Positions 862-13,777 of a DNA stretch of 55,794 nt are shown piece by piece. The DNA is from a virus: positions 1 through 55,794 of IMG/VR virus record IMGVR_UViG_3300042392_001901; one strand, written 5' to 3'. Below the pieces are notes generated by a model. That model had not been told where the DNA came from and ran no database searches. It saw only the letters and a list, made by a program, of their open reading frames with translations. How positions within the stretch are numbered: the first letter of the stretch is position 1; each line of letters opens with the position of its first letter. A program made the translations under genes and the position numbers.

Positions 862-936
862 GGGTATATAATGTAATGGATAGCATCAGGGTCTTCTAAA
901 TCCTTCGCCTAGGTTCGAATCCTAGTATACCCACCA
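862..936 (+). tRNA. tRNA-Arg (TCT)
   Basis: A full cloverleaf can be drawn: acceptor GGGTATA/TATACCC with A and encoded CCA, anticodon stem AGGGT/ATCCT with loop CTTCTAA (anticodon TCT), and T arm CTAGG-TTCGAAT-CCTAG. TCT reads AGA, a codon favoured in AT-rich phage genes. Confidence 0.9.
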
Positions 937-952
937 ATTTAAAAACACTATT

Positions 953-1585
953 ATGAATAAATGTAAACACTGTAAAGAAGAATTTGATTTGTGCGATAAA
1001 CCAAGTGGATGGATGGCAAACCATAGTAGATGGTGTAAAGAAAACCCAAAAAGAACTGAATATAAAAATGGTTCATTAAAGGCTGTTGCTGCTATGAATT
1101 TAGCGAAAAAAGAATCTGGAATTACTAATCAATATGATAAAGCAAAATCTGAGGGAAAGCAAATAGTTTCGCCGTTAATTAATAATAACTATTGGAAAGG
1201 AAGAAAACATACTGAAAAATCTAAACAATTGATGAAAGAAAAGGCGCTTTCTTCACCTCATAGAAGATTAAGAAGAGGAATTATTGAATATAATGGAATA
1301 ATGTTAGATTCTTCATGGGAATTAGAACTCGCTAAACGTTTAGATGAATGTAATATTACTTGGCTTAGACCAAGTCCATTGCCATGGATTGATAAAGATG
1401 GTATAACACATAATTATTTTCCAGATTTTTATCTTCCAGAATATAATCTATATCTAGATCCAAAAAATCCCCAAGCAATTAAAGTTCAAAATGAAAAATT
1501 AAAATGTTTGTTAAATCAATATGACAATATTGTTATTCTAAATTCTTTAGAATCATGTAAGAATTATAATATCTCTAATAAATAA
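953..1585 (+). CDS. Putative homing endonuclease (PD-(D/E)xK/Vsr-like, NUMOD3)
   Basis: A 210-residue protein starting 17 bases after tRNA-Arg. Residues 4-30 look like a zinc-binding element (CKHC ... HSRWC). Around residues 78-95 a WKGRKHTEKSKQLMKEKA stretch fits a NUMOD3 DNA-binding motif. The C-terminal half has an SSWELELAKRLDE segment, then YFPDFYLPEYNLYLDPK, resembling the E...PDF...D.K core of very-short-patch-repair-like and related PD-(D/E)xK nucleases. Such free-standing enzymes cut a DNA site and spread their own gene. The gene is very AT-rich and sits inside the tRNA cluster, consistent with a mobile insertion. The exact nuclease family is inferred from motifs only. Confidence 0.65.
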   Translation: MNKCKHCKEEFDLCDKPSGWMANHSRWCKENPKRTEYKNGSLKAVAAMNLAKKESGITNQYDKAKSEGKQIVSPLINNNYWKGRKHTEKSKQLMKEKALSSPHRRLRRGIIEYNGIMLDSSWELELAKRLDECNITWLRPSPLPWIDKDGITHNYFPDFYLPEYNLYLDPKNPQAIKVQNEKLKCLLNQYDNIVILNSLESCKNYNISNK

Positions 1586-1668
1586 AATTTCGGTACTGTG
1601 GTGGTATCGCTTACAGGAGCATGAGGTCCCTAAAGTCGAACAATTATCTCGTCGACAACCTCTAAATT

Positions 1669-1759
1669 TTCTATGGCTGTGTGATGAAATTGGTAAACAT
1701 TGCGAACTTAAAATTCGTTGCCTTATGGCTTGTCGGTTCGAGTCCGACCATAGCTACCA
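1669..1759 (+). tRNA. tRNA-Leu (TAA)
   Basis: Anticodon stem GCGAA/TTCGT carries loop CTTAAAA (anticodon TAA). There is a long variable arm (GCCTTATGGC), a T arm GTCGG-TTCGAGT-CCGAC and an encoded CCA. The D region GATGAAATTGGTAAACA is typical of tRNA-Leu. The first two acceptor positions do not pair with the 3' strand as read here, so the 5' end may be altered or off by a base or two. Confidence 0.85.
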
Positions 1760-1772
1760 TCTTTAAAAGATT

Positions 1773-1958
1773 ATGAATACAGAACATATTAAAAGTTTGA
1801 TTGACGCCGAAGTAGAAGCGCTACTCTCTGAGATGAATGAACTTAGAGAGCGAATAGCCAAACTTGAGCATGAATCATTTCGTCGATCGCTGAATGTTCA
1901 TCAACATATTGGGCAATACATAGATCACGAACAAAAAGAAAACGGACCAGTTTTATAA
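1773..1958 (+). CDS. Small coiled-coil protein
   Basis: A 61-residue protein between tRNA genes. Residues 5-35 (DAEVEALLSEMNELRERIAKLE) form a strong amphipathic coiled coil with leucines at heptad spacing; the tail is polar. Function is unknown. Its gene ends just before the broken tRNA at 1964. Confidence 0.5.
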   Translation: MNTEHIKSLIDAEVEALLSEMNELRERIAKLEHESFRRSLNVHQHIGQYIDHEQKENGPVL

Positions 1959-1963
1959 TGAAA

Positions 1964-2003
1964 GGGGCTTGTAGCTCAGCGGTAAGAGCAGGGGTCTATG
2001 ATT
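1964..2003 (+). pseudogene. 5' half of a second tRNA, interrupted
   Basis: GGGGCTT GT AGCTC AGCGGTAA GAGC A GGGGT is the 5' half of a tRNA through the first anticodon-stem strand. It is interrupted in the anticodon loop by a late promoter (2005-2012) and a GIY-YIG endonuclease gene. A matching 3' half (ACCCC ... AAGCCCC) was not found downstream. Confidence 0.55.
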
Positions 2004-2004
2004 G

Positions 2005-2012
2005 TATAAATA
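2005..2012 (+). promoter_or_regulatory. T4-type late promoter TATAAATA
   Basis: An exact TATAAATA six bases ahead of the GIY-YIG endonuclease start at 2018, directly behind the tRNA half. Confidence 0.6.
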
Positions 2013-2017
2013 GAATT

Positions 2018-2542
2018 ATGTTCTATACAATCTATAAAACTACAAATCTAATCAATAATAAATTTTATATAGGTAAACATCAAACTGCTAATCCAAATGA
2101 TTCGTATTATGGTTCCGGAAAGGCAATCAAGGAAGCTATATTAAAATATGGTAAGGAAAATTTTCAAAAAGAAATATTGTTTATTTTCCAAACAGAAGAG
2201 GAGATGAATGCAAAAGAAAGAGAATTGATTACTGAAGAATTTGTAAATTGCAAGGACACTTATAACATGGGAGTCGGCGGTGAAGGTGGATCACATTTTA
2301 AAGGCAAATCTCATTCAAATGAAACTATTTCACAAATTAAAAAAACTTTAAATTCCAGTGATAATAAACAAAAATTTATTGATGCTGGAAAACGTGGTGG
2401 TTCTTCATCAAAAGGTAGAAAACTTAGTGAAACTGCAAAGCAAAATATTTCGAAAGCAGCAAAATTAAGAAAGCCGATGAGCGAAGAAACAAAACAAAAA
2501 ATTTCAAATTCTTTAAAAAATCGAAATATTTCTAAGAACTAA
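2018..2542 (+). CDS. GIY-YIG homing endonuclease with NUMOD3 repeats
   Basis: A 174-residue Seg-type enzyme. The nuclease domain is at the N terminus: YTIYKTTN (GIY position), then KFYIGK (YIG position), a YYGSGKAI segment, and a downstream Glu-rich helix. The C-terminal third holds three NUMOD3-like DNA-binding repeats (FKGKSHSNETISQIKK, SKGRKLSETAKQNISK, MSEETKQKISNSLK). The ATG at 2018 is chosen because earlier in-frame sequence is the tRNA half. T4 Seg enzymes are relatives that move between phages and often sit by tRNA genes (known). Insertion into the tRNA is inferred from the broken half upstream. Confidence 0.85.
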   Translation: MFYTIYKTTNLINNKFYIGKHQTANPNDSYYGSGKAIKEAILKYGKENFQKEILFIFQTEEEMNAKERELITEEFVNCKDTYNMGVGGEGGSHFKGKSHSNETISQIKKTLNSSDNKQKFIDAGKRGGSSSKGRKLSETAKQNISKAAKLRKPMSEETKQKISNSLKNRNISKN

Positions 2543-2552
2543 ATTTCTATAA

Positions 2553-2628
2553 AGGCTCGTAGCTTAGCGGTGAAAGCGTCCGACTCATAATCGGGTGACC
2601 CTCGGTTCGAATCCGAGCGGGCCTACCA
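2553..2628 (+). tRNA. tRNA-Met/Ile (CAT)
   Basis: Cloverleaf: acceptor AGGCTCG/CGGGCCT with A and CCA, D stem GCTT/AAGC, anticodon stem TCCGA/TCGGG with loop CTCATAA (anticodon CAT), T arm CTCGG-TTCGAAT-CCGAG. Elongator Met or lysidine-modified Ile cannot be separated by eye; it is not a clear initiator because the anticodon stem lacks the three G-C pairs. Confidence 0.88.
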
Positions 2629-2640
2629 TTTTTAATAAGA

Positions 2641-2658
2641 ACCCAACCGGGCCCACCA
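2641..2658 (+). pseudogene. tRNA 3'-end remnant
   Basis: ACCCAACCGGGCCCACCA ends like a tRNA acceptor strand with CCA and resembles the end of the tRNA-Met just upstream (CGGGCCTACCA). No tRNA body precedes it. It is likely a leftover from tandem tRNA duplication and loss. Confidence 0.4.
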
Positions 2659-2659
2659 T

Positions 2660-2667
2660 TATAAATA
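2660..2667 (+). promoter_or_regulatory. T4-type late promoter TATAAATA
   Basis: An exact TATAAATA eight bases before the ATG at 2675. Confidence 0.6.
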
Positions 2668-2674
2668 TCATGAC

Positions 2675-3472
2675 ATGGTTTTACGTGCACTGCTATTCAT
2701 TACTAGTCTACTTGTGGCTGGATGTGCCGCATGGTTTTCAGTACTTGGCATTGCTACACTCTTTAGTGGTAGCTATGTTTCAGTGCTCATCATGGCAAGT
2801 GCACTAGAGATTGGCAAACTTGTAGCGACGACCTATTTGCATCACTATTGGGCATACACATCAGCACTCTTAAAAGGCTATCTCGTCACAGCTACACTCA
2901 TACTCATGTGTATAACTTCACTCGGTATTTTTGGTTATTTATCGTCTGCCTATGCTGTAAACTCAATACAATTTTCTAACATTGACTCCCAGGTTGTAGC
3001 TCTTCAAGAACGTAAGAGCGGCATCGACTCTGAAGTCTCACAAATCAACTCACGAATAGAGACACTAAACACTGCACGTCGTTCACAAGAAGAACGCTTG
3101 CCAAAGATGTCTGCGGCAAATGCACGACCAATCTATGCTGACATTGAAAGAACAGCGGCTGAAATGCAAGCACAACGCGAGAGAATAGTTCAACTGCAAG
3201 ACAGCAAGAGAGAGCTTGACACACAAATACAAGAGCTAAAACTCAAGATGTCGGCATCAAAAGACATTGGAACGTTTAAGTTTATTGCCGATCAGTTTAA
3301 TCTGCCGCTCGATACAATCGTAATGGCCTTTATATGCATAATCATTGCTGTGTTTGATCCACTTGCAATTGCACTGCTGCTGTCATACAACAGCACACTT
3401 TCCAAAACACTCATGAAAGACAAGTCAGTTGATGTTTCAAATCGCATCTATGACCTGTCTGACGGCTTATAA
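2675..3472 (+). CDS. Membrane protein with periplasmic/cytoplasmic coiled coil
   Basis: A 265-residue protein. About three hydrophobic segments lie in residues 1-95 (LLFITSLLVAGCAAW, VSVLIMASALEIGK, YLVTATLILMCITSLGIFGYL), then a long charged coiled coil at about 105-200 (QERKSGIDSEVSQINSRIE ...), then another membrane helix near 215-240 (IVMAFICIIIAVFDPLAIALLL). From memory, proteins of this layout recur in marine T4-like phages as unnamed membrane proteins. Its late promoter suggests late expression. The role is unknown; the long rod between membrane anchors could be structural or act in envelope remodelling (inference). Confidence 0.6.
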   Translation: MVLRALLFITSLLVAGCAAWFSVLGIATLFSGSYVSVLIMASALEIGKLVATTYLHHYWAYTSALLKGYLVTATLILMCITSLGIFGYLSSAYAVNSIQFSNIDSQVVALQERKSGIDSEVSQINSRIETLNTARRSQEERLPKMSAANARPIYADIERTAAEMQAQRERIVQLQDSKRELDTQIQELKLKMSASKDIGTFKFIADQFNLPLDTIVMAFICIIIAVFDPLAIALLLSYNSTLSKTLMKDKSVDVSNRIYDLSDGL

Positions 3473-3478
3473 ATTTTA

Positions 3479-3569
3479 GGGTAGATGGCTGAGTTGGTCT
3501 AAGGCGCTCGACTTGAAATCGAGAGAGGTTTAATCGCCTCCGTGGGTTCGAATCCTACTCTACCCGCCA
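3479..3569 (+). tRNA. tRNA-Ser (TGA)
   Basis: Acceptor GGGTAGA/TCTACCC with G discriminator and CCA, anticodon stem CTCGA/TCGAG with loop CTTGAAA (TGA), long variable arm, T arm with GGTTCGAATCC. Class II layout as expected for serine. Confidence 0.93.
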
Positions 3570-3573
3570 TTTT

Positions 3574-3663
3574 GGAACGTTGACTGAGTGGTCGAAAGTG
3601 TTTCCCTGCTAAGGAAATGTAGGGGCAACTCTACCGTAGGTTCAAATCCTACACGTTCCGCCA
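3574..3663 (+). tRNA. tRNA-Ser (GCT)
   Basis: Acceptor GGAACGT/ACGTTCC with G discriminator and CCA, anticodon stem TTTCC/GGAAA with loop CTGCTAA (GCT), long variable arm, T loop TTCAAAT. It lies four bases after the preceding tRNA-Ser. Confidence 0.93.
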
Positions 3664-3683
3664 ACACATATAGATACTTTTAT

Positions 3684-3758
3684 GGGGAGTTAGCTCAGCG
3701 ATAGAGCATCTCGTTTACACCGAGTCGGCCGGGGGTTTGAATCCCTCACTCCCCACCA
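3684..3758 (+). tRNA. tRNA-Val (TAC)
   Basis: Acceptor GGGGAGT/ACTCCCC with A and CCA, D stem GCTC/GAGC, anticodon stem TCTCG/CGAGT with loop TTTACAC (TAC), T loop TTTGAAT. Confidence 0.9.
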
Positions 3759-3791
3759 CTTCTCCCCCTGAAAAACAAAATGAACTATAAT

Positions 3792-4520
3792 ATGAAAAAA
3801 CAAACACAAATCGTTAAAGTCGGACTTATTGCAGCACTTGCTGCTCTTAACTATGCCTATGCAGGCCCAATCGAAGACGCTCCTTCAGCATTCACGCCAG
3901 TGACGCTTGAAACTGGCTACTCGTCTGATAAGGTCTGGCGTGGTGCTGATCTAGGTGCAAATGAAGCAAATGCAATCGTCACAACGACAACTGAACTTCC
4001 TGCGGACGTTTCGTTGGCGCTGAGTGCTGACTATGCAAACGCTGAAACAACTGGGAAGGACGAAGCTACTGAGCTCTCTGCAATCTTTTCTAAGAGCGTT
4101 GCTGACTATCTCGTATCTTTGAGCTATACCTGGTATTCGCAAGACTATGCAGGACAGGAAGGACAAGCGCAAGAAGCTGGTTTGACTGTATCACGTGTAG
4201 TTGGTCCAATCGACCTTTCGCTTACGCAATATGTCGGACTTGTTGGTGACAATAACAGCTATAGCGAACTTGCAGCAACATACAGTGATGATTTTGGATC
4301 TTCATTGATGCTTGACTTTCGCGCTGAGCTTGGCTATCTCGCTCAAGAAGGACAGTGTACTCACTTTGAGACCACTGTGTCGACTGACATTCCAGTTGTG
4401 CAAGGCGTGACCGCTGTTCCGTTTGTCTCATACTCACTTGGTCTTGATGACTCGGTTGGTGTGCATTCAGACATGAAGAATCTTTTCTTCGGTGGAATTG
4501 AGTTTAAGAAGACATTCTAA
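3792..4520 (+). CDS. Outer-membrane beta-barrel protein with signal peptide
   Basis: A 242-residue protein. It begins with a classic Sec signal peptide: MKKQ basic start, hydrophobic core, AYA cleavage site before GPIEDAP. The mature part alternates polar and hydrophobic residues in strand-sized runs (VTLETGYSSDKVWRG, VSLALSADYAN, YLVSLSYTWYSQDY, VDLSLTQYVG-like, SLMLDFRAELGYL) and ends in Phe, the usual signal for beta-barrel assembly. The GYSSDKVWRGADLG stretch recalls bacterial outer-membrane proteins with a YVFRG motif. No phage structural family is recognised. It could change host surface traits such as phage re-entry or uptake during infection (inference). An alternative ATG lies at 3780. 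Confidence 0.65.
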   Translation: MKKQTQIVKVGLIAALAALNYAYAGPIEDAPSAFTPVTLETGYSSDKVWRGADLGANEANAIVTTTTELPADVSLALSADYANAETTGKDEATELSAIFSKSVADYLVSLSYTWYSQDYAGQEGQAQEAGLTVSRVVGPIDLSLTQYVGLVGDNNSYSELAATYSDDFGSSLMLDFRAELGYLAQEGQCTHFETTVSTDIPVVQGVTAVPFVSYSLGLDDSVGVHSDMKNLFFGGIEFKKTF

Positions 4521-4542
4521 TATTATAAGAATATAAAACAAA

Positions 4543-4576
4543 AACGGAGCCTTCTCTATGTTGGCTCCGTTTTTTA
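4543..4576 (+). terminator. Rho-independent terminator
   Basis: ACGGAGCC (4544-4551) pairs with GGCTCCGT (4563-4570), followed by a run of T. It closes the beta-barrel gene and precedes tRNA-Leu. Confidence 0.85.
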
Positions 4577-4579
4577 TTT

Positions 4580-4663
4580 GGGCAAGTGGTGTAATGGTAG
4601 CCACGCGGGTTTTAGAAGCCCGTGCAGTGATGCGTGAGGGTTCAAGTCCCTCCTTGCCCACCA
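4580..4663 (+). tRNA. tRNA-Leu (TAG)
   Basis: Acceptor GGGCAAG/CTTGCCC with A and CCA, anticodon stem CGGGT/GCCCG with loop TTTAGAA (TAG), a long variable arm and T loop TTCAAGT. It starts right after the terminator, so it must be transcribed by read-through or from its own promoter. Confidence 0.88.
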
Positions 4664-4665
4664 AC

Positions 4666-5124
4666 TTAATAGTTAGTCTTGCCAAAGCTGTAAAGCATTG
4701 GATTATCACTTGATCCGGTGCCGGTTGTAGTGACATCCTTTTTAGCTGGAGTAAATGCATAAATCTCACGTTGAGCACGATCTGCATCAATCCATACTTC
4801 TTTATAGTTGCTGTCGCGAATGAGCAGCATTGGCGCGCCATGAATATGAGCATAGCCAACACACTCTCCGCGAATGCTGTCAGAGCCAGAGTGAACTTCA
4901 AGATATTTTCCAAAGAGTGGAAACTTGTCTACTTGTCTGTTTACAGTATCGACAAATGAACCAAAATCGTCTTTGCTTATGAGATCTTTTCCAATGTAGA
5001 TGCCTTTGCCTTTGGCACGATAGCTCGGAAAGGTTACAATGCCTTCGCTTAATTGTTCTTGAGACAACACATGTGCAGCGGCAGAAACCAATGGGTCTTC
5101 TTTGTATGATGTGAAATTATTCAT
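4666..5124 (-). CDS. Putative internal head protein 1 (LxE targeting peptide)
   Basis: A 152-residue protein on the minus strand. Residues 10-20 (DPLVSAAAHVL) and the following LSE at 25-27 match the N-terminal pattern of the four genes across the divergent promoter region. In T4, the prohead protease gp21 cuts after (L/I)xE, and internal proteins carry a short N-terminal capsid-targeting peptide (known). By analogy residues 1-27 would be removed and the remaining ~125 residues packaged (inference). The body has no recognised domain; it is polar with mixed alpha/beta character. A minus-strand late promoter lies at 5134-5141. Confidence 0.55.
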   Translation of the reverse strand: MNNFTSYKEDPLVSAAAHVLSQEQLSEGIVTFPSYRAKGKGIYIGKDLISKDDFGSFVDTVNRQVDKFPLFGKYLEVHSGSDSIRGECVGYAHIHGAPMLLIRDSNYKEVWIDADRAQREIYAFTPAKKDVTTTGTGSSDNPMLYSFGKTNY

Positions 5125-5133
5125 AATCTATCT

Positions 5134-5141
5134 TATTTATA
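5134..5141 (-). promoter_or_regulatory. T4-type late promoter (minus strand)
   Basis: TATTTATA on the plus strand reads TATAAATA on the minus strand, ten bases ahead of the gene ending at 4666. Together with 5164-5171 it forms a divergent late-promoter pair. Confidence 0.6.
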
Positions 5142-5163
5142 CATTTTTCGAATTATGAAATTG

Positions 5164-5171
5164 TATAAATA
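5164..5171 (+). promoter_or_regulatory. T4-type late promoter
   Basis: An exact TATAAATA eight bases before the ATG at 5179. Confidence 0.65.
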
Positions 5172-5178
5172 GTCTTAT

Positions 5179-5748
5179 ATGCAACCCTTTGACAACTATA
5201 AAAATGACTCTCTTGTGAGTGCTGCAGCAACGATTCTGGAGGGCAAGACCTCAGACGGGTGTCTTCAAGAAGCACAGAGCGCAATTATAAAACGCCTATT
5301 AGCAGAAATTGACAATTTAAATAGAAGTCAAATGCAAGAATTTTTACTTGCATTTGCAGATCATATGGACGAGATGACAAAATATGCATCATCACGTGAT
5401 CACAAAGGCAATCCAAGAGGCGTCATTAAAAAAATAAGTGATCACCTCTATGACGCAGCAAGAGCAGCAAGCGGATTAAAGACCGGTGAAAAGTATGGTT
5501 ATAATGAAGGTGTTGAAGATAAAGGTGAGACACTACAGGAATATTACACCGCTAAATTTCCACTTGCTAAAAAGGCAATGGGAGCAGTGCGCAATCTGGA
5601 TGAAGATGAAATGGAAGATTTCTTATTTGCGCTTGATGGATATTTTGACGGAGGAGAAAGTTCTGGTTATAAAGAATCAAGCAACATCTCTGCATTAATC
5701 TACAAGGCAGCACAAATTTGGAAAAATAGAAACGAAAGATATGCATAA
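5179..5748 (+). CDS. Putative internal head protein 2, two helical repeats
   Basis: A 189-residue protein. The N-terminal motif NDSLVSAAATIL (residues 9-20) is followed by LQE at 29-31, the candidate prohead-protease site. The rest contains two copies of a helical repeat, about 36-100 and 120-188. Each has a short helix, a MQEFLLAFADH / MEDFLFALDGY segment, a variable loop with Gly/Ser, and a closing helix rich in Ala (LYDAARAAS / LIYKAAQIWK). The same repeat occurs once in the large protein at 6710 (residues ~508-570). A LQE also precedes the second repeat, so a second cut is possible. The function after delivery is unknown. Confidence 0.55.
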   Translation: MQPFDNYKNDSLVSAAATILEGKTSDGCLQEAQSAIIKRLLAEIDNLNRSQMQEFLLAFADHMDEMTKYASSRDHKGNPRGVIKKISDHLYDAARAASGLKTGEKYGYNEGVEDKGETLQEYYTAKFPLAKKAMGAVRNLDEDEMEDFLFALDGYFDGGESSGYKESSNISALIYKAAQIWKNRNERYA

Positions 5749-6238
5749 AAACCCGCTTATAGAAGCAGCAACAAGAATCCTTCAAGGCAAGCCCGAAGAC
5801 TTACAAGAGTCTTTTATGCGTTTGCCTGGACATGTCATCAACAATGAATTATACACGCTAGGCAAATCATTTCAACAATTTGTTGATTCAATAAAACGTG
5901 GCGATGACTTTGATCCAAAGAAGATCAACTCACTTATAACTGCATTAAATTCCATAAAGTCTTCTGCAAAAACTTTTAAAGATGGAGAAAGTGTTCCTGT
6001 TTCATATCAGTATGGAAACGTAAAGGAAGCTGCCGAACAAGACGCAGGCGAGTATGACGCTGAAGGCAGCATGGCAAAGACTGCTCTTCGTACAATCATT
6101 CGCAACGCGCAAGGTTTACATGACATGCTTGCAGACGACGAAAATTTACCAGAGCACGTTCAAGCAAATCTCGTAAAGGCAGAAGAGTATGTTGTCAGTG
6201 CTCGTGACTATATTGAGAGCACAAAGGAAGCAGAATAA
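5741..6238 (+). CDS. Putative internal head protein 3
   Basis: A 165-residue protein whose start overlaps the end of the previous gene by eight bases. The N-terminal motif NPLIEAATRIL (residues 4-14) is followed by LQE at 21-23. The remainder is charged and mostly helical (IKRGDDFDPKKINSLI..., a long Ala/Glu-rich middle, and a C-terminal helix). It is read as a packaged protein with a cleavable leader by comparison with its neighbours. No known domain is seen. Confidence 0.5.
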   Translation: MHKNPLIEAATRILQGKPEDLQESFMRLPGHVINNELYTLGKSFQQFVDSIKRGDDFDPKKINSLITALNSIKSSAKTFKDGESVPVSYQYGNVKEAAEQDAGEYDAEGSMAKTALRTIIRNAQGLHDMLADDENLPEHVQANLVKAEEYVVSARDYIESTKEAE

Positions 6239-6247
6239 ATAAGACAT

Positions 6248-6691
6248 ATGAATAATTTTCATTACAACCAAGATCCACTGTATGCTGCTGCAGCAAAGAT
6301 ACTCGGCAGAGAATCATTAACAGAAGATGCATCGCATGCGTCTGCCCTTAAAGAACTTAAAGCTTCTAAGGGTGCTGCAATGATAAAGTCAAAAAACAAT
6401 CATGTATTTGGTAAAAATGGTGGATTTTCTGCAGCTCAAGAAGACGCTGACACAATTGCTATTATGATTTTCAAGCAGTCGAACAAAGGGTGGATTACCA
6501 AGACCACATTCTATACAATCGAAAAAGAAGATGGCGAAAGTTATTTTAATGTCTATAGTCAAGACGTAACACACATCGCAAATCCAAAGACGTCTGCTGA
6601 AAAGGTCTATGAGATTGCAAAGCAACACAGCGACAGCAAATACTATTTCAAAACCTTCGATCAAAAATTAGAAATTAACGAACTAAACTAA
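6248..6691 (+). CDS. Putative internal head protein 4
   Basis: A 147-residue protein. It opens MNNFHYNQDPLYAAAAKIL, followed by LTE at 24-26, nearly the same leader as the next gene. The body (about 30-147) has a beta-rich stretch with KGWITKTTFYTIEKEDGESYFNVYSQDV and a basic C-terminal part. A near-consensus late motif (AATAAATA) is at its start. Shared leader and order point to a common packaging route; the body is unrecognised. Confidence 0.55.
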   Translation: MNNFHYNQDPLYAAAAKILGRESLTEDASHASALKELKASKGAAMIKSKNNHVFGKNGGFSAAQEDADTIAIMIFKQSNKGWITKTTFYTIEKEDGESYFNVYSQDVTHIANPKTSAEKVYEIAKQHSDSKYYFKTFDQKLEINELN

Positions 6692-6692
6692 A

Positions 6693-6700
6693 TATAAATA
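6693..6700 (+). promoter_or_regulatory. T4-type late promoter
   Basis: An exact TATAAATA ten bases before the ATG at 6710, just after the stop of the preceding gene. Confidence 0.6.
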
Positions 6701-6709
6701 AATTAACAC

Positions 6710-8773
6710 ATGAATAACTTCCACTATCACCAAGACCCGATGTATGCTGCAGCTACAGCAATTCTAACTGGCAAAACTCAACTGCAAGAGTCTGATACTC
6801 TTGACGAAGCAATTGATTGGAACCTTATCCAATCAATGTATGTAAAAGACATTATTGATATTGTAGCAGCATTAGTAATTGGAGGAGGAATTGGTGTAGC
6901 TGCTATATTTGGTGGCGCAATAAAAAGATATCTTTCAGATAAAGCAGACGAAAGAGACGCAAAGGAGTCTGCACAATTCTTAAAGAGCACACTTGATAAA
7001 ATCTTAAAGGACAGCAAATCAAAAGAGCTTATTTCACAAATTAAATCTTTTCCTTATTCATCAAAATCTACAGAAGAAGCTAAAAAGAATAACGAAGAGC
7101 GTAAAAAGCTAGTTAGAGCTTATAGTGCACGTCTCAAAACATTATTAAGCGATGATGAGTATGCATTGATAAATGACATCTATAACAATACCATTCGTGA
7201 AAGCGCTGATACTCTTGAAGAAGGAGTCGAAGACGTCAAGTCAATCGTCGACACCCTAAAGGTTGGCGACACTACAAACTTTGGCAAGGTGTTAGAAATT
7301 GGGACTAACAGCATTACATTCAAGGCAAAAGATCTTCCAAAGACAACAATTGCGTTTAATCAACGCAAGATGGGCAGCTCAGAATTTTTACTTCTTAAAA
7401 CAATCAAACTAAAGGAAGAGACTGAACTTGAAGAAAAGGACGTTGCTGAAGCATACAAGCCATTACGCAAGCCAGCCGACCTCATCGACGAATTACAAAG
7501 CATAGTCGACGCCCCAGATTCAAAACTTTGGGACGTCACAAGTGTGTCTATTCGTTTAAGTCATGAAGACATCTTTGATCGTTTTCCAAAGATTTATGAC
7601 TATGTTGAAGATATGTGGTTTGAAATTATGCAACCAAATGGTGCTAAAAAGACAAAAGAAATTGCTAAAAAAGCAATTGAAGCAGTGCGCAAGTATTATC
7701 CAGACCTCAACAAATCTCAGAAAAGCAATCCAGTCTATAAAGAAGAAGAGAGCATTGAAGAAAAAACAATTGATGAAGCAATCAACTGGCTTGGTGACTA
7801 TCTCCCAACTTCAGAAAAGAGTCAGTTTGGCGGATATCGTCCGACAATTATTGATAAGAAAACTAAAAGAGTTATATACCAAAGTGCGGTTAGATACAAT
7901 GCACCTCAAGAGGCAAAGGATCACGCTGAAGAATATCTCAAGCAAAAGTCAAAGGGCATCAAAGAGCCAAAACTTCCTCATGTCGGCACATACAAAGAAG
8001 AGTCTGATTGCCCCGATGAAAAGATGGATGAAGCAGCAGATGCGGCACTCAAGCGCCGCAAGCAAGTTGACATGGCCCGAGTAAATGCTGGAACTATGAG
8101 TCGCGATGACTATAATAAAAAGTATAAACTTGGTAAATATCGTCCAGCCGGCAGCAAATTGTCTGGTCCAGGTGGAGTCTATAAAAATCTTGTTAAGGAG
8201 GAAGAGACACTCGAAGAAGCTGTTCCAACACCAGCTGTACAAAAGCTTATAACATCAATTGATATGCTAAGCCCTAAAGACTATCTAGTTTTCTTACAGG
8301 CACTCGCAGACAACGCGCAAGGCATCGCTAATATGTCACAAGCAGGAAAAGATGGAAAGTCAAATGCAAATGCATGGAAAACTGTAGCAGATCATATTTC
8401 TACAGCAGCTGATGCCTATGCAAAGCGTCCAGTTCGCCTGGAAAACATAGAAGTAGAAGGCGAGTCTCTCGAAGAAGCCGCTAAAATTACTCCAGTAAAA
8501 GGAAAATATATCTTCTTTATTCAAGACCGCGAACTCTATCAACTCGACCCATATAAACTGCTTGCAAAGACTGATTTTGATCGAATCTCTAGCAGCAAAC
8601 TTATGTCACACATGAAATTAGGCAGCGAGTGGAAAGCAGTATCAGTTGCATGGGGAACAGATCTTCTTGAGATTGGTGCACTCGAATCTCCAAAAGATAT
8701 ATCTGATGCAGAGCAATGGTATGTTGTGCCCCATCTATACGACAAAGTCACACATCTTGCATTGATACACTAA
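6710..8773 (+). CDS. Putative internal head polyprotein with repeated LxE sites
   Basis: A 687-residue protein with the same leader as its neighbours (MNNFHYHQDPMYAAATAIL, LQE at 25-27). The sequence is then divided by recurrent motifs fitting the (L/I)xE cut site of T4-type prohead proteases: LDE 31-33, LEE 169-171, LEE 240-242, IEE 349-351, IDE 354-356, MDE 439-441, LEE 501-503, LEE 587-589, several followed by Ala or Gly. The pieces differ in character: one has a Gly/Ala/Ile membrane-like helix (about 48-72), one is a helical repeat as in the gene at 5179 (508-570), one is short and basic with GKYRPAG (442-495), and the last is compact (590-687). Reading it as a polyprotein is inference. 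No family is recognised. Confidence 0.55.
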   Translation: MNNFHYHQDPMYAAATAILTGKTQLQESDTLDEAIDWNLIQSMYVKDIIDIVAALVIGGGIGVAAIFGGAIKRYLSDKADERDAKESAQFLKSTLDKILKDSKSKELISQIKSFPYSSKSTEEAKKNNEERKKLVRAYSARLKTLLSDDEYALINDIYNNTIRESADTLEEGVEDVKSIVDTLKVGDTTNFGKVLEIGTNSITFKAKDLPKTTIAFNQRKMGSSEFLLLKTIKLKEETELEEKDVAEAYKPLRKPADLIDELQSIVDAPDSKLWDVTSVSIRLSHEDIFDRFPKIYDYVEDMWFEIMQPNGAKKTKEIAKKAIEAVRKYYPDLNKSQKSNPVYKEEESIEEKTIDEAINWLGDYLPTSEKSQFGGYRPTIIDKKTKRVIYQSAVRYNAPQEAKDHAEEYLKQKSKGIKEPKLPHVGTYKEESDCPDEKMDEAADAALKRRKQVDMARVNAGTMSRDDYNKKYKLGKYRPAGSKLSGPGGVYKNLVKEEETLEEAVPTPAVQKLITSIDMLSPKDYLVFLQALADNAQGIANMSQAGKDGKSNANAWKTVADHISTAADAYAKRPVRLENIEVEGESLEEAAKITPVKGKYIFFIQDRELYQLDPYKLLAKTDFDRISSSKLMSHMKLGSEWKAVSVAWGTDLLEIGALESPKDISDAEQWYVVPHLYDKVTHLALIH

Positions 8774-9453: not shown

Positions 9454-10248
9454 CTTATGTTTTGTAATTGGCACTCGATAGAGCCAGTGTACTGAGTCAC
9501 TAAATCCTGAGCCCCAATGATGCACACTAAACTGATGTATATGTCGTGCTCGTGATAGGATAAAAAAATCTACTAGTGTGTCAAGCGCAGAATCATTTTC
9601 AAGTGCCATATGACTTGGAACCGTAGAAGTGCATCTCAAACCATATTTTTCTGCTAAGATGCGCTTACATTCAGCCGAGTCTGACATTATTATGCATGGA
9701 CGTGTAGTAGAATCTTGTATAGTTTTTACAACAGATAACCTATCAATAAGTTGTTCCATTGTATAGTCAACAGTGTCTCCTATTTGAGTGCCAAATGAAA
9801 GTATGTCACCGACGCGAACATGAATAACTTCATAATCTGTCAACGAATCTAATGCAGCAACTATTGCGCGTTCACACTCTTCAGTTGGTTGCAAATATTT
9901 TCTAACAGACTCTACTATTCGCCTTGGTAGTTTAAATACTGGCCATACATTTGTGTAAATATGTAAATTATCCCGCCGTAAATTTTTTAGATTTATTTGA
10001 TTTTTAAGATTGGTTTGTAGTGCCCGTAGAGTGGCATTTTGAATGTCTTGTAAATCTAAAATTTTATTTGTATTTGGAGGTGTAACCGAACATTGATTTT
10101 GTAAATATTGACCAATTGGGTGCTGCCTAAAATCAATTTCAAATGGTATACTATATTCCACGCATAGTTGATTTGCCGCGATTGACCCTCGTATAAAATC
10201 ACCCAATCCCATCCCCCTTTCTTTTGCAAAGTATGTGTGTATGAGCAT
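9436..10248 (-). CDS. Fucosyltransferase-like glycosyltransferase
   Basis: A 270-residue protein. The start MLIHTYF at 10248 is chosen because the longer frame runs into the divergent gene. Residues 10-25 (KERGMGLGDFIRGSIAANQL) look like a Gly-rich nucleotide-sugar loop. The C-terminal half has HVRVGD, CIIMSDS and DFFILSRARHIHQFSVHHWGSGFS, the pattern of alpha-1,2/1,6-fucosyltransferase-type (GT11/NodZ-like) enzymes. It would transfer a sugar from a nucleotide donor onto a glycan or virion protein. It is transcribed away from the FkbM gene, forming a divergent glycan-modification cluster. Donor and acceptor are unknown. Confidence 0.6.
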   Translation of the reverse strand: MLIHTYFAKERGMGLGDFIRGSIAANQLCVEYSIPFEIDFRQHPIGQYLQNQCSVTPPNTNKILDLQDIQNATLRALQTNLKNQINLKNLRRDNLHIYTNVWPVFKLPRRIVESVRKYLQPTEECERAIVAALDSLTDYEVIHVRVGDILSFGTQIGDTVDYTMEQLIDRLSVVKTIQDSTTRPCIIMSDSAECKRILAEKYGLRCTSTVPSHMALENDSALDTLVDFFILSRARHIHQFSVHHWGSGFSDSVHWLYRVPITKHKLSPTN

Positions 10249-10260
10249 GTTATTATTTAT

Positions 10261-10268
10261 TATAAATA
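10261..10268 (+). promoter_or_regulatory. T4-type late promoter
   Basis: An exact TATAAATA six bases before the FkbM methyltransferase start. The overlapping reverse motif AATAAATA faces the fucosyltransferase-like gene. Confidence 0.6.
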
Positions 10269-10274
10269 AAATAT

Positions 10275-10931
10275 ATGAAAATAACGCGTGAAAACATTGC
10301 GATTTTAGAGAATGATACTCATATATCACGTTGGGTTGAAGAAAGTGGCCGCCTCGATCATGATCGCTACGCGTTGCCAATCATTTTAGAATATATACAA
10401 CCTGGTTATACAGTTGTTGATGCTGGTGCATTTATAGGCGACCACACACTTGCATATTGTGATGCAGTTGGTAAAAATGGAGACGTTTATGCATTTGAAC
10501 CAAATCCTGCAGCCTTTGAATGTTTACAATATAATTGCGGTTCAGCAAATTTATTTAATTGTGGACTATCAAACTGTGACGAAGAAGTAAACTATTCAGT
10601 AGATAATAATGCTGGAGCTGGCCGAATATCACAACAGTCTGGTGATGGTTCATTTTGCATAAAAACTATAACACTAGACTCACTAAACCTGTCTGCTCTT
10701 GATTTTTTTAAGCTTGATATTGAGGGTTATGAACTCAATGCTTTAGAAGGAGCAAAAGAAACAATTTCAAAATATCGTCCAGTTTTTTGGATTGAAATTA
10801 ATGTCGGTGCCCTTGCGCAAAATGGCAAAACTGCGCATGATATTGAAAACTTTCTGTCTCAATTTGGTTATGACATAATACCATTCCCTGAAGTTGGTGA
10901 ACAATATGACATACTTTGCATACCGCAATGA
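10275..10931 (+). CDS. FkbM-family methyltransferase
   Basis: A 218-residue SAM-dependent methyltransferase. Residues 50-62 (TVVDAGAFIGDHT) are the SAM-binding motif I, VYAFEPNPAAFECL (about 77-90) is the acidic motif II characteristic of FkbM proteins, and LDFFKLDIEGYELNALEG (about 145-163) is the family-defining LDVEGxE-like segment. FkbM enzymes O-methylate sugars and polyketides (known). Its stop overlaps the next start as ATGA, so it is translated with two glycosyltransferases. It likely methylates a sugar placed by them (inference). Confidence 0.85.
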   Translation: MKITRENIAILENDTHISRWVEESGRLDHDRYALPIILEYIQPGYTVVDAGAFIGDHTLAYCDAVGKNGDVYAFEPNPAAFECLQYNCGSANLFNCGLSNCDEEVNYSVDNNAGAGRISQQSGDGSFCIKTITLDSLNLSALDFFKLDIEGYELNALEGAKETISKYRPVFWIEINVGALAQNGKTAHDIENFLSQFGYDIIPFPEVGEQYDILCIPQ

Positions 10932-11611
10932 AAACTGATATACTCATACGTTCGTATCGCAATGACTTTAAATGGTTGTGGCATTCTTTAAAAAGTATAC
11001 ATAAATATGGTAAAGAGTTTGAAACTCTTCATCTTGTAGTCCCAGAATCTGATGTTCAACTGCTCGCTCACCTTACAGCAGAGAATGTACATGGCACAGT
11101 TGATCAATGTGATGGCTATCTTGCGCAACAGATTACTAAATTACATGCAGACACGTGGTGTTTATCTGACTATATTCTTCATGTTGATAGTGACTGTATT
11201 TTTTATAAAGATTTTTCACCAACTTGTTTTTTTAAAGATAACAAACCTATTATGCTTCGCGAAGAATGTTCTAATAGTCCATGGAATGCGATCTCTGAAA
11301 AGACTCTTGGTTGGTATGATAGTTATGAATATATGAGAAGACATCCAATTATATATCCACGATGGATATATAACGAGTTTAGAGCATGGATAATGAAAAA
11401 ACATAGTTGCAGCCTTGAACAATGGATATGCCAACAACAGCGTAATGAATTTAGTGAGTTTAATACTCTTGGTCAATGGGCGCATAAAGTTTATCCTGAA
11501 GCATTTTCATGGTGTCACCCAAGCGAAGTTCCAGAATATTGTAAGCAATATTGGTCATGGGGAGGATTGCAAGATGATATAATCAAAGACATTGAAACAT
11601 TACTGGCATGA
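10928..11611 (+). CDS. Putative glycosyltransferase (DxD type)
   Basis: A 227-residue protein. It begins TDILIRSYRNDFKWLWHSLKSI, a typical GT-A start, and has HVDSDCIF near residue 85, a DxD-type metal/nucleotide-sugar motif. The C terminus is Trp-rich (EYCKQYWSWGGLQDD). It overlaps the FkbM gene upstream and the next glycosyltransferase by ATGA junctions. A damaged copy of its 3' end is found at about 12330-12488. The sugar is unknown. Confidence 0.65.
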   Translation: MKTDILIRSYRNDFKWLWHSLKSIHKYGKEFETLHLVVPESDVQLLAHLTAENVHGTVDQCDGYLAQQITKLHADTWCLSDYILHVDSDCIFYKDFSPTCFFKDNKPIMLREECSNSPWNAISEKTLGWYDSYEYMRRHPIIYPRWIYNEFRAWIMKKHSCSLEQWICQQQRNEFSEFNTLGQWAHKVYPEAFSWCHPSEVPEYCKQYWSWGGLQDDIIKDIETLLA

Positions 11612-12261
11612 AAGTTTTGCTTTTAACAGTTTGTTCGGCTCGTCATCAAAACTTTACTGAAAAGCTTTATAATGAAATTTTGTTACATTGCAAACATGAA
11701 TGTAAGATTGCATATCTTGATAATAGTTGCGAAGGAGACTTTCAAAGTGAGGCATTTTTTAATGCATGTTATAATAAAACACACCATATTATCACTGAAC
11801 TTGAGGCTTTGCAATATGGTGATGCACTCATATATCTAGATAGTGATATATGCGTAAGAGGCAACATAGTAACTACAATGTTAGAAGAACTTGGAGACTC
11901 TCATATTGCATTTCAACAAGATAGCAAAAACGCATTATGTGCCGGACTTTTTGTATGTCGGGTATGTCCTGAAACTATTAACTTTTTTAATAATGTAAAA
12001 GAAGCTCTCATTTGTAATAAAGAATATTATGCAGCAAAGGAATGTGACCAAACTGTAATAAATGAGATGTTACCGCATTCAGGTTTAAAATATATTCCAC
12101 TTAGTCTCAAATTTACGACATATGGCAATCTAGAACTCGGCCTTTGGAGTCCAGATTCTCCGCATTTTGTTTTAGATAGTGATGCCTTAGCATTTCATGC
12201 AAATTTTACAGTAGGGTTGCATAATAAAACACAATTGTTGAATTTAGTACGATCACAATAG
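11608..12261 (+). CDS. Putative nucleotide-sugar glycosyltransferase
   Basis: A 217-residue protein with a GT-A-like fold pattern: VLLLTVCSARHQNFTEKLY at the start, ALIYLDSDICVRG near residues 72-84 (DSD motif), then FQQDSKNALCAGLFVCR and CDQTVINEML, which resemble the acceptor-side motifs of nucleotide-diphospho-sugar transferases (GT77-like). It is last in the overlapping three-gene operon. It probably extends the glycan made by the upstream enzyme. Confidence 0.65.
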   Translation: MKVLLLTVCSARHQNFTEKLYNEILLHCKHECKIAYLDNSCEGDFQSEAFFNACYNKTHHIITELEALQYGDALIYLDSDICVRGNIVTTMLEELGDSHIAFQQDSKNALCAGLFVCRVCPETINFFNNVKEALICNKEYYAAKECDQTVINEMLPHSGLKYIPLSLKFTTYGNLELGLWSPDSPHFVLDSDALAFHANFTVGLHNKTQLLNLVRSQ

Positions 12262-12264
12262 TTG

Positions 12265-12293
12265 TGTACAAATAAGTAGATTTGGTGTATAAT
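12265..12293 (+). promoter_or_regulatory. Host-type promoter, near copy of the uvsE promoter
   Basis: TGTACA (12265-12270), 17 bp, TATAAT (12288-12293), then ACATCATGATG. The downstream bases match the uvsE promoter at 12826-12854 (TATAATACATCATGA). It probably now transcribes the pseudogene and tmRNA. Confidence 0.7.
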
Positions 12294-12298
12294 ACATC

Positions 12299-12488
12299 AT
12301 GATGCCAAGATTGAGACTTGTTCGTATTAGTGAATTTAATACACTTGGTCAATTGGCACGTAAATTTCATGCAAGATGCGTTTACTTGGATGTATCCTAG
12401 TGATGTACCAACTGTTTGTAAACAATATTGGTCATGGGGAGGTCTAGATGATAATATACATAATGAGATAAATAAAATAATAACTTAA
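12299..12488 (+). pseudogene. Chimeric remnant: uvsE 5' end joined to glycosyltransferase 3' end
   Basis: The first codons read MMPRLRLVRISE, close to the start of UvsE downstream (MTPRLGLVCISE). They switch at an AGTGA shared by both parents into EFNTLGQLARK, matching the glycosyltransferase at 10928 (EFNTLGQWAHK). After a frameshift the match continues (FTWMYPSDVPTVCKQYWSWGGLDDNI) to the end. The 33-codon ORF that remains is unlikely to be functional. It records an illegitimate recombination of two flanking genes. Confidence 0.75.
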
Positions 12489-12490
12489 AC

Positions 12491-12817
12491 GGGTGTGACA
12501 TGGTTTCGACATGACATTTGAAGCAATATATGCAATGCACAGTCTGCACGACTCTAAGTGCAAGAGAAAAACGAAAAAGATACACTAGCTCTCGCGGCAT
12601 AACCGCACCAACGCATCAACTCCGATAACATGCGTTGGTACAGAGTAGGGTCGGATAGTTGTATATCGAAAATATAATAGACTCATCGATTCGAATATTG
12701 ATGCGGGATTGCTCGACAACAATCTAGGTTGTGATTGTCCTAACATCAATCAATAAATTGTAGAAGTATATTGCCGAGAAGTCATGGACTGGAGTTCGAT
12801 CCTCCACACATCCACCA
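12491..12817 (+). ncRNA. ssrA: Transfer-messenger RNA (tmRNA)
   Basis: A 327-base RNA. The 5' end GGGTGTG pairs with CACATCC before A-CCA (one G-T pair). The T arm is TGGAG-TTCGATC-CTCCA, and GGTTTCGACA near the 5' end is the conserved tmRNA D-loop region. An internal reading frame (12558-12602) ends in ALAA plus TAA, and a 10 bp hairpin (12607-12639) follows, as in bacterial tmRNAs. tmRNA with SmpB rescues stalled ribosomes and tags the nascent chain for proteolysis. It may help translate phage mRNA or recycle ribosomes after host mRNA decay. No smpB is in the window, so host SmpB would be used. Confidence 0.9.
12558..12602 (+). CDS. tmRNA tag-peptide reading frame
   Basis: The frame encodes (V)QEKNEKDTLALAA and then TAA. 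An in-frame TAA immediately precedes GTG, so the resume codon is GTG or the following CAA. The C-terminal ALAA is the proteolysis signal of bacterial SsrA tags. Confidence 0.8.
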   Translation: MQEKNEKDTLALAA

Positions 12818-12825
12818 TTTTTTTG

Positions 12826-12854
12826 TTTACAAATTGACGCTTTTAGGGTATAAT
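12826..12854 (+). promoter_or_regulatory. Host-type promoter of uvsE
   Basis: TTTACA (12826-12831), 17 bp, TATAAT (12849-12854). The start codon follows after five bases, giving a nearly leaderless mRNA. Confidence 0.75.
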
Positions 12855-12859
12855 ACATC

Positions 12860-13777
12860 ATGACACCACGACTGGGACTAGTTTGCATAAGTGAAAGACT
12901 GACATACCAAAAGATCTCAGCAAAGACGATGACTCGCAAGCAGTTTGTAACTCTTGGTCGTGAGCGTGGGTTGCAAGTACTATCCGAGCGTATACTTCAT
13001 AATTCGCAGCACATCTTGCGTACACTCCAGGCATGCATCGACTCAGGTGCTCGTCACTATCGTGTGTCGAGTTCAATTTTCCCGTTGCTTACTGATCATA
13101 CGCTCGAGTTGCGCTACGACGACCTGCATGGGTTTGATGATATCGCAAGCAACCTTGCGAAGGCTGGTGAATTTGCTCGGCAGCATGACATCACATGCAG
13201 CTCACATCCCGATCAGTTTAATGTCCTATCAAGTTATAACCCTGATGTTGTAGACAAGACTATTCGCGAACTTGACCATCAGTCATATGTGCTTGATATG
13301 ATGGGATGTAAAGCAAACTATAGTTCTCCAATGTGTCTGCATCTCAACAAGAGCCCTGACTTTAAGCGTGAAACTATTGGCGAGTATGTGTCTCGCTTTT
13401 GTGCAAATCTCGCCCGTTGTAGTCGTGGCGTTCGTCATCGACTTGTGTTAGAAAACGAAGACAAGGCATACTGGAATTGCGAGAATCTCTACACACATTT
13501 TGCAGGGCATCTTCCACTCGTCTATGACAATCTTCATGACACGTGCAACCCGTCATGCGACTCGTCTCAAAGCATCTCTCGATTTCGCCAAAGTTGGGGA
13601 AAATATACTCCTGTGTTTCATTGGAGCGAAGGTATTGGCAGCACTCGTAGTCATACTGACTATGCAACCCATCTCCCACATGTAGTCTCTGCAAATCGTG
13701 ACGTCACCTGGGAAGTCGAACTCAAGGCAAAAGACAATGCAATTGCTCATATTCTGAGCACCTTTTTTGCCTCCTAA
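12860..13777 (+). CDS. uvsE: UV-damage endonuclease UvsE (UVDE)
   Basis: A 305-residue TIM-barrel nuclease of full family length. It begins RLGLVCISERL, the usual UVDE start; RISSDLFPL-like HYRVSSSIFPLLT, CSSHPDQFNVLSS, LVLENEDKAYW, PLVYDNLHD and PVFHWSEG contain the conserved metal-binding His, Glu and Asp residues. UVDE nicks DNA 5' to UV photoproducts to start repair. It has its own host-type promoter and is followed by promoter module B. Expression with a very short leader is predicted. Confidence 0.93.
   Translation: MTPRLGLVCISERLTYQKISAKTMTRKQFVTLGRERGLQVLSERILHNSQHILRTLQACIDSGARHYRVSSSIFPLLTDHTLELRYDDLHGFDDIASNLAKAGEFARQHDITCSSHPDQFNVLSSYNPDVVDKTIRELDHQSYVLDMMGCKANYSSPMCLHLNKSPDFKRETIGEYVSRFCANLARCSRGVRHRLVLENEDKAYWNCENLYTHFAGHLPLVYDNLHDTCNPSCDSSQSISRFRQSWGKYTPVFHWSEGIGSTRSHTDYATHLPHVVSANRDVTWEVELKAKDNAIAHILSTFFAS

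Follow-up and report, generated by a model that had tools for sequence, protein, structure and literature searches.

What unites five neighbouring viral genes that open with the same short N-terminal leader and continue into mostly different bodies? The question is raised by an array in the virus record IMGVR_UViG_3300042392_001901, which was analysed over its entire length of 55,794 bp (the window; positions refer to it unless a contig is named). The first-pass annotation had taken these genes for internal head proteins of the T4 type, with capsid-targeting leaders cut by a gp21-like protease. This interpretation is strongly, though indirectly, supported by the presence of gp21, gp22 and gp23 in relatives, by an LAE site in gp23, by array modules in gp22 and in a locus with T4-like targeting peptides, and by the tRNA neighbourhood; the annotation had overlooked the apparent polyprotein make-up of gene 5 and the sharing of domains between some bodies. 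We consider it probable that the five genes encode internal head proteins with capsid-targeting leaders cut by gp21, that gene 5 and, to a lesser extent, genes 2 and 3 encode polyproteins, and that their domains have been exchanged.

Gene 1 lies on the minus strand (4666-5124; leader 5044-5124, LSE at residues 25-27). The other four are on the plus strand: gene 2 (5179-5748; leader 5179-5271, LQE at residues 29-31), gene 3 (5741-6238; leader 5741-5809, LQE at residues 21-23), gene 4 (6248-6691; leader 6248-6325, LTE at residues 24-26) and gene 5 (6710-8773; leader 6710-6790, LxE at residues 25-27), whose leader ends in TQLQE/ and is followed by a second site, LDE/, at 6800-6808 (a slash marks the predicted cut). 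From gene 1 to gene 5 the leaders read MNNFTSYKEDPLVSAAAHVLSQEQLSE/, MQPFDNYKNDSLVSAAATILEGKTSDGCLQE/, MHKNPLIEAATRILQGKPEDLQE/, MNNFHYNQDPLYAAAAKILGRESLTE/ and MNNFHYHQDPMYAAATAILTGKTQLQE/, in which aromatic residues around positions 4 and 6/7 are followed by a short helix, DPLxxAAxxIL, and then by LxE. Positions, strands and leaders are as the first-pass annotation had given them, including an LxE at residues 21-31 in all five. When a profile was made from four leaders, the one left out ranked straight after the training members (13.8-40.6 bits), compared with 5.4 bits for the best non-member open reading frame (ORF) of the window and 8.8 bits for the best of 20 shuffles of all 552 window ORFs. 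An [LIM]xE within residues 19-34 is found in 17% of the background genes of a complete relative, which gives a P of about 1.5e-4 for five out of five. The annotation had also proposed searching for the leader beyond the array. Run over the window and ten related contigs, the five-leader profile found the cluster genes and hardly anything more that exceeded shuffled controls; the extra matches were a weak one just upstream of the window start in contigs G011 and G013 (with a homologue in G014) and the array genes of a distant relative, G015. An N-terminal peptide ending in (L/I)xE and common to otherwise different proteins, as in T4-type internal head proteins, is what the five genes share. F4 and Y6/7 occur in four of the five leaders, in agreement with the importance of residues 4 and 7 for targeting in the T4 sequence, where residues 8 and 10 matter for processing (PMC9026906); similarity to MKT(Y/F)xxF..(I/L)xE is otherwise slight, and the array leader is longer. 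In T4 IPIII, exchanging the Glu of the cut site for Asp blocks processing and leaves targeting intact (PMC9026906). A second type of leader, NIQDDPLVGIARAILEG, was observed on other proteins of more distant relatives (L114, 2324-3971; G003, 7039-7725; G015, 310-1263).

The annotation had asked whether gp21, gp22 and gp23 of this phage have the same LxE preference. None of the three genes lies in the window, and the answer comes from relatives. The closest cultured-phage matches of the window gp6 are Methylophilales phage Melnitz (37%) and Pelagibacter phages. A contig of 173,760 bp, G012, shows mostly 92-97% DNA identity across most of the window; it looks complete, because its two ends both map to one stretch of about 210 bp in the window, although they are not exactly identical. 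A further contig, G001, is colinear with G012, and the two together are about 90-97% identical in DNA to most of the window. Both supply the missing head genes, which are of the T4 type: gp21 (PF03420), gp22 (PF25623) and gp23 (PF07068), with the gp21 prohead protease encoded as a Peptidase_S77 in both. Their gp23 has an LxE site, AYLAE/GNS, near the N-terminus, close to the place of FLTE/AEI in T4; the two cut regions do not align residue by residue. Their gp22 is studded with LxE sites. Another contig, G011 (IMGVR_UViG_3300042502_001732), was tried as a source of head genes. It is 99.8% identical to the window over the first 30.5 kb of the latter, the rest being unrelated: positions 1-103000 have about 30% GC, do not resemble the window, and are joined to about 40 kb that match the phage group. 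As G011 is probably a chimeric assembly, its gp21-gp23 were discarded.

The bodies behind the leaders, described in the annotation as unrelated, are indeed mostly different, but genes 2 and 5 share a domain (residues 29-121 against residues 501-589; 28% identity, E 3e-5), and gene 5 in turn consists of a series of domains. Its 687 residues form a probable polyprotein, in which about seven segments are joined by TLEE/, LEE/, SIEE/, IDE/, KMDE/, TLEE/ and SLEE/. Module M1 (6809-7201, residues 34-164) is missing in G012, where the leader, ending in PLNE/, runs straight into M2. M2 (7223-7417, residues 172-236) is the most widespread module and was found in ten proteins. It is followed by M3 (7451-7762, residues 248-351), which ends in SIEE/, and by M4 (7778-8032, residues 357-441), which ends in KMDE/. 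M5 (8033-8218, residues 442-503; ending in TLEE/) is part of a separate small protein in G015, and M7 (8477-8770, residues 590-687) is a separate small protein there; between them stands an O2a-type module (8219-8476, residues 504-589; ending in SLEE/). Gene 2 joins modules O2a and O2b at TLQE/ (LQE codons 5533-5541), and gene 3 joins O3a and O3b at NVKE/ (VKE codons 6020-6028), while genes 1 and 4 have a single module each, O1 and O4. Instead of the one small body per gene of the T4 internal proteins, two modules are therefore found in genes 2 and 3 and seven in gene 5. Leaving aside the gp22 scaffold domain, the module catalogue, drawn from 34 proteins, holds 36 domain families, of which 22 occur in two or more proteins; the isoelectric points (pI) of the modules range from 4.4 to 9.9.

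The boundaries of these modules coincide with the sites. Orthologues of gene 5 differ in length (698, 716, 818 and 953 residues), for the most part through the insertion or absence of entire segments. Of the twelve ends of insertions and deletions among gene 5 of close relatives, ten lie no more than 5 residues from an [LIMV]xE (2.6 expected, p 5e-6). Likewise, 38 of the 40 modules with a new left neighbour start within 3 residues of such a site, where 7.5 were expected and none of 200,000 simulations gave as high a number. Genes 2 and 3 have their domains rearranged in G001, such that O2b follows another domain pair and O2a stands in place of O3a; O2b recurs behind other modules in G001, G015, L194 and L202. 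A search of viral contigs with the leader alone added the lineages L193, L194, L196, L197, L201 and L202, which have the same domains in other orders. The predicted cut sites of this phage group are thus also evolutionary domain junctions, at which domains have been gained, lost and moved among carriers.

The residues at the joints were tabulated for 90 distinct joints, which were picked by their position and by xE, not by the residue that follows (P1 is Glu by construction). P3 is Leu in 52 and Met in 19. Ala occupies P1' in 43 of the 90 joints versus 26 of 326 other [LIMV]xE sites in the same proteins, counts that are not independent across homologous modules. In T4, Ala follows the cut in IPI, IPII, IPIII and gp23 alike. 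With Leu/Met favoured at P3 and Ala/Gly at P1', the joints appear similar to T4 cut sites. They are of the (L/M/V/I)xE class, which was also used as the search pattern, and differ from the (S/A)xE motif of phiKZ-type processed head proteins; the head genes of the relatives are of the T4 type.

Is there a link between the array and the head-assembly pathway itself? In this phage group the scaffold domain of gp22, which matches cyanophage gp22, is located at the C-terminal end (T4_CASP at residues 252-495 in G012). The N-terminal part ahead of it varies and consists of successive domains linked at MTE/, MKE/ and comparable sites. The first 246 residues of the G012 gp22 had no match in 50,697 cultured-phage records, and the N-terminal parts of G001 and G012 differ by whole domains. 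The gp22 of L178 and L174 shares a domain with gene 5 of G012 at 90-91% DNA identity over about 300 nt (90% over 307 nt for L178). In addition, the gp22 of L178 shares a domain pair with a leader gene of G001 (86% DNA identity over 511 nt), and the same pair is present in a leader protein of L194. The shared stretches are in frame and bounded at xE codons, and the module-bearing gp22 genes are flanked by gp20, gp21 and/or gp23. T4 gp22 belongs to the prohead core, where gp21 cleaves it (PMC9026906); because of this, a domain between cut sites in gp22 would be released inside the head. The modules within gp22 are the strongest argument that the leader proteins would enter the same pathway. Two other candidate links were set aside. 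A blastp match of gene 5 to the G012 gp22, made without composition correction, was taken as an artefact of acidic composition, and module N5 (G014) resembles a module of the G001 gp22 too weakly (28%; E 5e-8 in a very small set and about 1e-3 with phmmer) to serve as main evidence.

A second connection comes from a locus at 40-53 kb of G012. Proteins encoded there have N-termini resembling the T4 capsid-targeting sequence (MKTFKQYITE/A, MKSFKEYITE/A, MRFKEYISE/, MQSFKEFLLE/ and LTEFKRYLTE/A), T4 IPII and IPIII beginning with MKTYQEFIAE/A. Two proteins of the locus with more divergent starts (MKSLNEILNE/ and MKTKSLSE/) bear array domains. A DUF5824 module forms a small protein behind a T4-like peptide in C48C1 and G012, and lies within a chain of 650 residues in Melnitz. 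Several proteins with T4-like targeting starts, MSNVISFKSYLAE/, MISFKQHYLTE/ and LKSFKDYITE/A, were also observed in L113 (378-6552), a related contig. Multidomain proteins resembling NadM/cytidylyltransferase, with many LxE joints, occur in the cultured phages L204 (Melnitz, 10625-12577) and L206 (DLP_6, 9724-13220) and are possibly packaged enzymes.

The array also has promoter motifs of the late type. The T4-type late promoter motif TATAAATA is found in exact form before gene 1 (5134-5141, minus strand), gene 2 (5164-5171, plus strand) and gene 5 (6693-6700, plus strand), 9-14 bp upstream of these three of the five array genes, and a late-promoter-like AATAAATA precedes gene 4 (6234-6241, plus strand). 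The divergent late-promoter pair of the first-pass annotation is thereby confirmed. The exact motif also precedes gp20 and gp21 in G012. Adjoining the array is a cluster of seven transfer RNA (tRNA) genes (862-4663, plus strand), the array beginning 3 bases after it. T4 ipI likewise stands beside the T4 tRNA cluster, and tRNA genes occur near the array in most other lineages checked. Among the tRNA genes of the window are two genes resembling homing endonucleases (953-1585 and 1958-2542), both with a NUMOD3 motif and the second with a GIY-YIG domain as well. Transfer-messenger RNA genes, with tag peptides ending in SGLALAA, lie in the tRNA clusters of relatives (L193, 2326-2630; L194, 2843-3156; L109, 5094-5402), and L197 has, in a cluster of 14, a tRNA with the anticodon CUA, a possible amber reader (2537-2611). 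Elsewhere in the window, gp5 (baseplate hub and tail lysozyme) appears to be split, with another ORF in between: the ORF at 43932-45278 matches the N-terminal part of the gp5 profile and an endolysin, and that at 46087-46929 matches profile positions 322-560.

Searches for a function of the modules gave little. No convincing family match was obtained with Pfam and PHROGs for the whole array proteins and ten single modules, or with PADLOC for the whole proteins; matches to PifA (E 0.0018, 14.9 bits) and TcdB_N (0.0062, below cut-off) were regarded as noise. Searches of cultured phages, bacterial genomes and PDB sequences yielded no relative of gene 5; for genes 1 and 2, cultured phages likewise yielded none. 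AlphaFold models were weak, with a mean predicted local distance difference test (pLDDT) score of 41 and 51, and Foldseek with the gene 1 model returned nothing below E 0.001. The low pLDDT near the joints of gene 5 would fit flexible linkers, to which we attach little weight.

Taken as internal head proteins, the array products suggest the following route. During head assembly the leader would dock the protein on the gp22 scaffold core, and the prohead protease gp21 would cut after the LxE of the leader and free the body into the head. In the multi-domain genes gp21 would cut at each joint and leave separate proteins of about 50-150 residues in the head. Since each domain is bounded by an (L/M/I/V)xE site, the protease that destroys the scaffold would also separate the domains, which as cargo would be small enough to leave with the DNA. 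Domains have moved among the leader proteins, the N-terminal part of gp22 and the proteins of the T4-type targeting locus. The variation of T-even internal proteins has been argued to reflect an arms race (PMC3012670), and the turnover of modules between phages that are otherwise about 95% identical fits such a process. The pattern suggests that the reshuffled small proteins are an exchangeable kit delivered into the host. A fuller version, in which a pool of dozens of domains with protease-site joints is exchanged like cassettes, the joints double as recombination points, and gp22 is itself a carrier whose destruction releases host-acting cargo, we hold to have slightly better than an even chance of being correct.

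Several observations weigh against the array proteins being internal head proteins of this kind. The leader is longer than the T4 targeting sequence and only loosely similar to it, and gene 3 has no aromatic start. [LIM]xE is a common pattern, and some sites within domains are presumably not cut. Two of the twelve gene 5 indel ends and two of the forty module starts have no site nearby, and the P1' counts carry the dependence noted above. The gp21, gp22 and gp23 genes were read from G012 and G001, outside the 55.8-kb window. Finally, no function could be recognised for the modules, some of them are not basic (pI 4.4-9.9), and their structure models are of low confidence.

The modules might instead be packaged and cut by gp21 as core filler, giving bulk to the scaffold core, balancing its charge or setting its size, with no action on the host. 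They occur inside gp22 itself, their size is small, no enzyme, anti-defence or defence family matches them, and a number of them are acidic or neutral, whereas the T4 internal proteins are basic. Such filler, however, would have no need of dozens of unrelated, precisely exchanged domains, and the fast turnover between genomes about 95% identical looks like selection by the host, as with the T-even internal proteins (PMC3012670); we regard this explanation as rather unlikely. That gene 5 and its kin are packaged and injected whole seems more doubtful still. In that case the LxE joints would be flexible acidic linkers that recombine easily, and the linkers are in fact rich in acidic residues, short repeated linker sequences could act as recombination points, and polyvalent proteins, which are multidomain, may be packaged and injected (PMC5512222). 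Yet the joints show more than acidity: they prefer Leu or Met at P3 and Ala or Gly at P1', which is the signature of T4 cuts. The modules are also found inside gp22, whose T4 counterpart is cut by gp21, and no peptidase domain was recognised in gene 5.

The leader might also be an ordinary N-terminal domain with another role, such as binding a tail or replication protein, its LxE being incidental. [LIM]xE is frequent, occurring within residues 19-34 of 17% of background genes, but the motif recurs at the leader end in all five genes and in almost all distant members, and the domains downstream are common to array proteins and scaffold, which makes an incidental site very improbable. We give least credence to the possibility that the domain exchanges are artefacts of chimeric metagenome assembly. 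G011 itself has the look of a chimera: over its first ~100 kb the GC content is about 30% and nothing resembles the window. The exchanges, on the other hand, are in frame at xE codons with 10-14% divergence, they recur in several contigs from different samples (L174, L176 and L178; G012, L109 and L194), and gp22 remains beside gp20/gp21/gp23.

Targeting sequences, gp21 processing and variable internal proteins are already known. Like T4 IPI, IPII and IPIII (PMC9026906, PMC3012670), the array proteins start with a short peptide that ends in (L/I)xE and continue into unrelated bodies; late-type promoters, a tRNA cluster as neighbour (ipI) and strong variation between relatives are further points in common. 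Unlike them, they have a longer leader of another sequence type, serial domains on one polypeptide and an exchange with the scaffold. The gp22 of the relatives has the T4_CASP domain (PF25623) and LxE sites in common with T4 gp22, from which it differs in its long extra N-terminal part of exchangeable domains. The head and ejection proteins of phiKZ and SPN3US, as far as the available part of the source describes them (PMC10052503), include many internal proteins whose propeptides are cut after xE by a gp21-like protease and which are ejected; there the propeptide is removed from one body, and that part of the source describes no string of separately released domains and no exchange with the scaffold. 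Polyvalent proteins (PMC5512222) are also multidomain with shuffled domains and may be packaged and injected. Some of them, in contrast, are freed by an embedded peptidase and have recognisable enzymatic domains; in the array, Pfam, PHROG and PADLOC scans showed no embedded peptidase and no recognised enzymatic or anti-restriction domain, and the cuts are proposed to be made by the head protease. The DUF6267/DUF5824/NadM-like locus of the cultured relatives Melnitz, C48C1 and DLP_6 has T4-like targeting N-termini and LxE-jointed proteins, but the leader is of another type and the locus is a different one; its role is not described in the literature searched. Chains of separately bounded domains and the sharing of domains between scaffold and cargo are likewise not described there, the search having covered few subscription journals.

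Of the phage proteins that are injected, the T4 internal proteins rank among the best known, yet what IPII and IPIII do is still unsolved (PMC9026906). This phage group offers dozens of small domains that can be listed from sequence by their joints, as candidates for anti-defence or host takeover. The joints predict exact cut ends, and cultured relatives with related LxE-jointed proteins, such as Melnitz, make their study practical. A protein chain cut by a protease suggests a way of loading several proteins into a phage head with one leader. If the scaffold also carries cargo, head assembly would be linked to protein delivery in a way not described in the literature searched.

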